From: Bacteroidales bacterium
Lineage (GTDB): Bacteria > Bacteroidota > Bacteroidia > Bacteroidales > UBA12077
Reading direction: 5' to 3'
Length of the DNA: 39,006 nt
Assembly (NCBI GenBank): GCA_030611105.1
Contig: JAUWQL010000018.1
Location: 1-39,006, forward strand
A model generated the notes under the pieces. It was not told the origin of the DNA. It was given only the letters and a program-made list of their open reading frames with translations, and searched no databases. Shown in pieces: positions 18,107-18,701 of this stretch. Position 1 is the stretch's first letter; each line of letters opens with the position of its first letter. Position numbers and translations under genes: made by a program.

Positions 18107-18176
18107 TCCGCTAACGCGGATTTGCAATCCGGGCTAATGCAGTGAAAATAAAAGGCACGGAAAACATTTCCGCGCC
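18107..18176. repeat. Cluster of small palindromes (TCCGC-taac-GCGGA, GGATT-tgc-AATCC, GGCaCGGAAA-aca-TTTCCGcGCC)
   Basis: Read directly from sequence between the 220-aa CDS and tRNA-Ala. Confidence 0.7.
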
Positions 18177-18236
18177 AGCAGATGTCTTTTATAAAAAGAA
18201 AAAACTCACCTATGCCAAAGCTTCGGTGAGCGAAGG

Positions 18237-18310: not shown

Positions 18311-18348
18311 AAGTAAATTAAAGATCGTGAACCAGTCATTACGCTCTA

Positions 18349-18365
18349 ATCCCGAAAATTCCGGG
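18349..18365. repeat. Palindromic insertion (atCCCGaaaattcCGGG)
   Basis: 17 nt absent from the intact tRNA copy. Confidence 0.75.
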
Positions 18366-18376
18366 GCCAACTGAGC

Positions 18377-18416
18377 CCTGCCTGGCATGCCAAAGGCAGC
18401 TTAACCGGCAGGCAGG
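18377..18416. repeat. Palindromic insertion (CCTGCCTG...CAGGCAGG)
   Basis: 40 nt absent from the intact tRNA copy; related core at about 30598-30616. Confidence 0.8.
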
Positions 18417-18701
18417 TAATGCCCCAAAAATAAAATCATGTGAAAATACCTTTTTTTATTTAAAATGAAAAGTTATTTTAGCGGCCTGGAAACATTTATA
18501 TATAATAATTGATGTTTTATAGAATAAAGTAAATATTTTTATTTTAACTTTTTTTAACAATTTATTACTGATTTTAAGAAACATAACAATATTTAAAACG
18601 TAATATTAAAGCCAAAAGCAACTTTGATATTATTTTTTGCATCTAAATTTTGAAAAACATTATAATATTATCTATTTTTAGACATTCAAAAATAAACCAA
18701 C

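Follow-up and report, generated by a model that had tools for sequence, protein, structure and literature searches.

How does an intact tRNA gene come to be preceded by a broken half of itself? The window, i.e., the whole 39,006-nt stretch of DNA analyzed here, raises this question at its tRNA-Ala locus, whose features all lie on the minus strand. ARAGORN called the intact, uninterrupted tRNA-Ala(GGC) alone (18310-18235; RF00005, 66.4 bits), and a terminator-like hairpin was read directly 3' of it (18205..18230). Upstream, sequence reading and chain alignment revealed a partial 5' copy of the same gene (18332..18425), which covers tRNA positions 1 to about 36, contains two inserts, and was not called by ARAGORN. 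After the tRNA promoter and leader (18426..18480, recognized from orthologous leaders), which now precede the partial copy, there follow GGGGCATTA (18425-18417); a 40-nt palindromic insert of the CCTGCCTGCCGG family after tRNA position 9 (18377..18416; sequence, copy search, and position table); GCTCAGTTGGC (18376-18366); a 17-nt palindromic insert in the D-loop, after tRNA position 20 (18349..18365; sequence and family search); TAGAGCGtaaTGACTGG, read as the segments TAGAGCG (18348-18342) and TAATGACTGG (18341-18332); and a 21-nt spacer (18311..18331) that leads directly into the intact tRNA.

Taking out the 40 nt and 17 nt restores the intact sequence, with sharp boundaries after positions 9 and 20, as a sequence-only reading had proposed for a doubly interrupted 5' half at 18330-18428, coordinates that were off by a few bases at most. 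Both inserts are exact: 0 bases of the intact tRNA were lost or duplicated at either site. The copy had also been taken to record the pre-insertion sequence, and the intact tRNA-Ala itself serves as the empty site for this comparison. ARAGORN and Rfam found no complete cloverleaf in the partial copy, and Rfam returned no match to the Ala inserts or the partial copies beyond the intact tRNAs. The spacer resembles the leader (TTCACgATcTTtAATTTacTT versus TTCACATGATTTTATTTTT), suggesting that the duplicated unit consisted of the leader plus the 5' half. That the remnant is a duplicated tRNA copy agrees with the arrangement in G012, the closest relative found, and in G014, in which the leader abuts the intact tRNA-Ala and no copy is present. 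The sequence-only reading had suggested looking for an uninterrupted second tRNA-Ala in sister species; G012 has no copy there at all. Chance and assembly artefact were rejected, since independent genomes, among them G016 (10 contigs), show the same arrangement and it is specific to strand and locus; the source genome, G000, is 89.7% complete in 217 contigs. Further palindromic sequence (CGCGGATTTGCAATCCG, GGCACGGAAAACATTTCCGCGCC) was observed at window positions 18110-18180, between the tRNA terminator and the end of the neighboring gene.

The palindrome of the 40-mer is imperfect and encloses a hairpin, and the 17-mer is CCCGGAATTTTCGGG with one odd base (plus strand, TCCCGAAAATTCCGGGG). Both inserts are thus palindromic, as had been stated, but the palindromy of each alone is modest: the energy z-score was about -1.3 in both cases, and RNA folding of either insert alone was barely better than that of shuffled sequences. 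The CCTGCCTGCCGG...GGCAGG type occurred in the genome with 7 + 7 strand matches (14) versus 0 in the reversed control, and elements related to the 40-nt insert occupy the same position in G016 tRNA-Ala and G000 tRNA-Met. The exact 17-mer was present in 1 copy, with 1 neighbor at 2 mismatches, and the TCCCGAN6TCGGGA family was represented by 87 copies (within 1 mismatch) versus 4 in the reversed control. Judging from this likeness, the 17-mer is probably a decayed TCCCGA-N6-TCGGGA element. The two palindrome families that had been suggested at this locus can therefore be accepted for the 40-nt type, which is multicopy; the 17-mer is single-copy as written and joins a family only by resemblance.

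Multicopy number and presence/absence between species argue for tiny mobile palindromes, as had been supposed; we infer mobility from these patterns rather than from observed movement. In 50 copies of the 18-nt TCCCGAN6TCGGGA family, no flanking direct repeat of 4-9 nt was detected, and a GTAG/CGTC tag stood at one end of 2 copies (2/50), the chance level being 2.8%. With tags at chance and no target-site duplication above 3 nt, neither palindrome family could be linked to a transposase. The genome contains nine Y1_Tnp matches, including RAYT-like ones; one RAYT-like gene scored under the NCBIfam cut-off, and the RAYT-like L235 shares a contig with CCTGCC-type elements. At L232 (1423-2105), a RAYT-like transposase gene has the palindrome AGACCTAACAGGT...ACCTGTTAGGTCT on both sides, which represents a third palindrome family.

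The order of events could be read by comparing G000 with G012, which is its sister in the TonB tree (moderate support; TonB 96% identical) and has no copies at Ala, Gly, and two of the Met genes. At the ortholog of the Met gene on C42, the anticodon-arm palindrome of the nearest 5' copy is common to both species, whereas the D-loop site is unbroken in G012 (AGATG|GTTAGAG) and occupied by a 40-nt CCTGCC element in G000. This empty site bears out the earlier proposal of precise insertion, and since the G012 copy has the anticodon palindrome and an empty D-loop site, inserts can be added singly. The palindromes were therefore inserted later and one at a time at this Met locus, and the other loci are consistent with the same order. 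In the Arg(cct) copy, two CCTGCC palindromes flank the D-arm in G012, and one palindrome without a D-arm is present in G000, as expected from deletion between two palindromes; this is the one locus at which such a deletion accounts for replacement of a whole arm. At the Met gene on C106, the ancestral terminator, as seen in G012, matches the terminator that follows the outermost 3' copy of G000, and therefore new 3' parts with new terminators came in between. Downstream of orthologous tRNA-Phe genes (L050 and L240), the two sister species have unrelated terminators, and a palindrome occupies the loop of the G012 terminator, which suggests rapid turnover of tRNA terminators.

Scanning the 22 tRNAs of the source genome revealed palindrome-bearing partial copies at Ala, Val, three Met, Arg(acg), Arg(cct), Ser(gct), Asn, and Gly(gcc), each built from an end of the neighboring tRNA itself and one or two palindromes. 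Upstream of Val(tac), the copy reads GGGAGATT, insert tcccgatagatatcggga, CAGCTGGTTCAGAGCA, insert tcccgattatgatcggga; upstream of Met (C106), gggtccata, insert cctgcctgccggcaggcagg, gctcag; upstream of Arg(acg), GGATA, a 20-nt insert, GTGCACC; and upstream of Ser(gct), GGTGGGAG, an 18-nt insert, GGCTTAATCC. The upstream copy of Met (C42) has one insert in the D-loop and one replacing the anticodon arm, and upstream partial copies are also present at Met (C29) and Arg(cct). Downstream of Gly(gcc), the copy reads GAGTTCCG, a 20-nt insert, TTTCTCGC; further downstream copies belong to Asn, Met (C42), and Met (C106, twice), and that of Arg(tct) has a different T-loop insert. The 3' copies of Arg(tct), Ser(tga), and Ser(gct) (L053, L249, L264, L126, L087, L269-L278) share the motif GATGAGAACC...TTCGAAC before the T-loop insert, a motif that was detected in 6 of 19 same-genus genomes (control, 0).

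We surveyed 131 tRNAs from the same-genus genomes G000, G016, G007, and G013 and from part of G035, which belongs to another family of the order. Under a strict criterion, i.e., two colinear blocks of the tRNA's own end interrupted by an insert, 13 upstream and 12 downstream flanks were positive, whereas the flanks of other tRNAs gave 1.8% upstream and 1.0% downstream, and the opposite strand gave none; the criterion admits a few false matches, and several long "inserts" are plain flanking DNA. Flanks of other tRNAs replaced an own-flank control, which was confounded by tRNA clusters. The pattern of partial copies with palindromes arose independently beside about one-fifth to one-third of the tRNA genes checked in the genus. 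At the tRNA-Ala locus itself, G003 and G013 have an 18-nt palindrome in the D-loop, G016 has a 20-nt palindrome after position 9 and a longer insert, G007 has another insert, and G035 has a 53-nt insert; the partial tRNA-Ala copy is absent in G012, G014, G017, G008, G015, and others. A search of 394 genomes for the strict D-loop pattern returned five sites, which lie in four genomes representing four families of the order; the control gave 0. Each of the five can be read as a partial tRNA copy, and in one case a 3' copy immediately follows a GIY-YIG gene. In tRNA-Asn of G062, palindromes occupy the D-loop, the anticodon arm, and the T-arm, and in several species the partial copies have decayed (L028, L036). 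In G159 (L225, 1380-1590), there are two tandem 5' tRNA copies, the first of which has a palindrome inside a palindrome.

The inserts in partial copies are unevenly placed, with 14 in the D-loop (9.7 expected if uniform), 13 in the T-loop (5.9 expected), 3 at the 8-9 junction (1.6 expected), and 0 in the acceptor stem (3.7 expected). These counts include the false matches L120, L128, L140, L166, L245, and L266, which were discounted on visual inspection but still inflate the rows for the D stem and the anticodon stem/loop and leave the loop and arm cases listed by sequence unaffected. In five cases exactly 17 nt are replaced, and in four of them these are the exact anticodon arm (tRNA-Met, Val, and Pro), with an 18-19-nt palindrome in its place. 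A similar preference was seen in 50 copies of the TCCCGAN6TCGGGA family: 10 occupy the loop between the arms of an inverted repeat, in many cases a terminator, compared with 1.1% for random positions and 1.5/50 in a permutation, and 6 lie in partial tRNA copies by our own classification (Poisson P about 1e-8 or less for assumed target sizes). Around the palindromes outside tRNAs no local duplication was seen; many of them occupy terminator loops instead. Targeting of hairpins by the palindromes is supported as the simplest reading of these results. The loop preference could in part reflect tolerance rather than targeting, in that terminators and intergenic hairpins may simply bear inserts.

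GIY-YIG nuclease genes are a further companion of these tRNAs. The source genome has 11 matches to PF01541 above cut-off. A GIY-YIG gene stood beside the tRNA, always on the tRNA's strand, in 18 of 134 tRNA windows, several of which are shared by orthology or tRNA cluster, so that they represent about 13 distinct loci. A small GIY-YIG ORF lies between the intact and the partial copy at Arg(acg), Met, and Asn of the source genome, at Asn of G062, at Arg(acg), Val, and Leu(caa) of G013, and at Val, Leu(caa), and Gly(tcc) of G016; further GIY-YIG ORFs were found just downstream of tRNAs without a clear copy. At Gly(tcc) of G016, a unit composed of a 3' tRNA part, the same terminator, and a truncated GIY-YIG gene is repeated in tandem. 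None of the genomes inspected has a GIY-YIG gene at its tRNA-Ala locus. Phage T6 offers a parallel: its GIY-YIG endonuclease, SegB, causes a tRNA segment to be amplified in tandem, the resulting repeats contain segB truncated at its C-terminal end, and homologs of segB are overrepresented in the vicinity of phage tRNAs (PMC13096335). It is plausible that GIY-YIG cutting and repair likewise cause partial duplication at the loci with such a gene, and at Ala the same cause may be suggested by analogy with those loci. Two further arrangements were observed. At L157 (G013:C13:65910-67381), the native tRNA-Arg(CCT) was apparently displaced by a foreign one, and the native 3' half lies about 150 nt downstream, without a palindrome, followed by a decayed GIY-YIG fragment. 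At L077 of the source genome (1386-1470), a GIY-YIG gene is followed by a fragment like the 3' end of another RNA gene, with the palindrome TCCGCCAGCTGGCGGA inside it.

We consider it fairly probable that truncated tandem tRNA copies arise, driven in part by GIY-YIG nucleases, and that REP-like palindromes then land preferentially in the hairpins of the redundant copy. On this view the tRNA-Ala remnant is a redundant, truncated tandem copy of leader plus 5' half that two REP/MITE-like palindromes later entered. That the ends of tRNA genes are partially duplicated in tandem is directly seen at these loci; tRNA genes would repeatedly gain partial copies of their own ends, with 5' parts upstream and 3' parts plus terminator downstream. 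SegB-like cutting of the tRNA gene, followed by recombinational repair that regenerates one intact tRNA, may produce part of this duplication, and is the simplest account of some of it because the GIY-YIG genes mostly sit between the intact gene and the copy. REP/MITE-like palindromes, presumably moved by an enzyme, would enter hairpin-forming DNA such as terminator loops, the D-loop, the T-loop, the base of the D-arm, and other palindromes. A hit in the sole working tRNA would be lethal, so that survivors would be found in the redundant copy, and an insert would break homology with the intact gene and may thus protect the copy from being deleted again. Where two palindromes flank an arm, deletion between them would leave a palindrome in the arm's place. 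The sequence-only reading was right on the sequence and, as these comparisons support, largely right on its meaning; beyond it lie the genus-wide recurrent association, the preference for hairpin loops and arms, and the GIY-YIG genes between intact and partial copies.

Copy and palindrome might instead be made together in one coupled event, by hairpin exchange or template switching in single-stranded DNA. Nearly all partial copies carry an insert and insert-free ones are rare, which fits such an event, as do the exact replacement of the 17-nt anticodon arm in tRNA-Met, Val, and Pro, the three occupied arms and loops of tRNA-Asn in G062, and the nested palindrome within the tandem copies of G159. 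However, the Met copy of G012 has its anticodon palindrome and an empty D-loop site, the 3' copy of tRNA-Arg(cct) in G013 is without a palindrome, and palindromes are common outside tRNAs without nearby duplication; we regard a coupled event as unlikely. A bolder reading, which we consider rather unlikely, is that mobile palindromes in this order target hairpins of single-stranded DNA and can exchange one hairpin for another, so that the D-, anticodon, and T-arms of redundant tRNA copies are replaced exactly by element hairpins; together with GIY-YIG cassettes they would form a tRNA-parasitizing system that duplicates the tRNA as its own safe landing site.

Ordinary integration might also leave such remains, if integrases or phage-like elements displaced tRNA ends and palindromes merely built up in the non-coding DNA. 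The Arg(cct) locus of G013, in which a foreign tRNA is followed by the native gene's 3' half, has this appearance, and the position of the ancestral Met terminator after the most distal 3' copy in G000 implies that new 3' parts and terminators were inserted. Integrase sites normally leave 3' parts, though, whereas many copies here are 5' parts lying 13-60 nt from the intact tRNA, and chance build-up predicts far fewer palindromes in partial copies than were seen, which makes this origin quite improbable. Very improbable, in our judgment, is the idea that the partial copies are functional RNA that aids precursor processing or termination, with inserts kept as they preserve the arms. The inserts do spare the acceptor stem, arms are either retained or exchanged for other hairpins, and 5' copies located between promoter and tRNA should be transcribed. 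Against this, G012 dispenses with copies at four of these genes (Ala, Gly, and the two Met), many loci are one-sided so that an acceptor stem cannot form, copies have decayed at L028 and L036, and the Rfam matches stop at the intact tRNAs.

What these results add to the sequence-only reading is that small palindromes, partial copies of tRNAs, and genes for GIY-YIG nucleases recur together across several families within one order; no paper combining these features was found in the PubMed Central open subset. The loci offer a natural record of tiny mobile DNA attacking tRNA genes. Intact tRNA genes would rarely record failed attacks because a hit would be lethal, but in redundant copies the points of insertion, the empty sites, and, between sister species, even the sequence of events remain readable. 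Two questions thus become testable within one genus: by what rule REP-like palindromes select their targets, for which hairpin loops are candidates, and whether the bacterial GIY-YIG nucleases encoded next to tRNA genes duplicate those genes in the way SegB does in phage T6.

Several known systems are similar in part. SegB and the free-standing GIY-YIG nucleases of T-even phages appear comparable in their GIY-YIG domain, their position beside tRNA genes, and the tandem tRNA segment with a truncated nuclease gene; here, in contrast, the arrangement is chromosomal, one functional tRNA is kept, and the copies are partial and palindrome-ridden; the likeness is anatomical. MITEs are likewise non-autonomous inverted-repeat elements, and inserts of 50-110 nt at tRNA position 15 (ttccgaa...ttcggga) resemble MITEs with a double hairpin, but the 18-nt family is without a target-site duplication above 3 nt and no parent transposon was identified. 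As in REP/RAYT systems, the palindromes are short, multicopy (87 copies here), mostly extragenic, and sometimes nested, and the genome encodes RAYT-like Y1 transposases; REP dimers inside palindromes have been reported (PMC3733652). Unlike in those systems, no GTAG/CGTC tag above chance was found here, and the palindromes on either side of the one RAYT-like gene that is flanked in this way belong to another family (AGACCTAACAGGT...). No description of the insertion of REP elements into tRNA gene copies was found among PubMed Central open papers.

Rickettsia palindromic elements also lie precisely inside genes, a likeness of arrangement that extends to the in-frame 42-nt palindromes found here and carries no claim of membership. 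The host differs, and the main gene targets here are partial tRNA copies and hairpin loops. The 42-nt palindrome (CCTGCCCGCCTGTCTGCCGACAAGGCAGGTCCGGCAGGCGGG and variants) was observed in frame within several ORFs (L006, 38-80; L007, 1487-1530; L009, 1500-1542; L012, 1500-1542), and in three of them it is read in the same frame, as the peptide PARLSA..AGPAGG.
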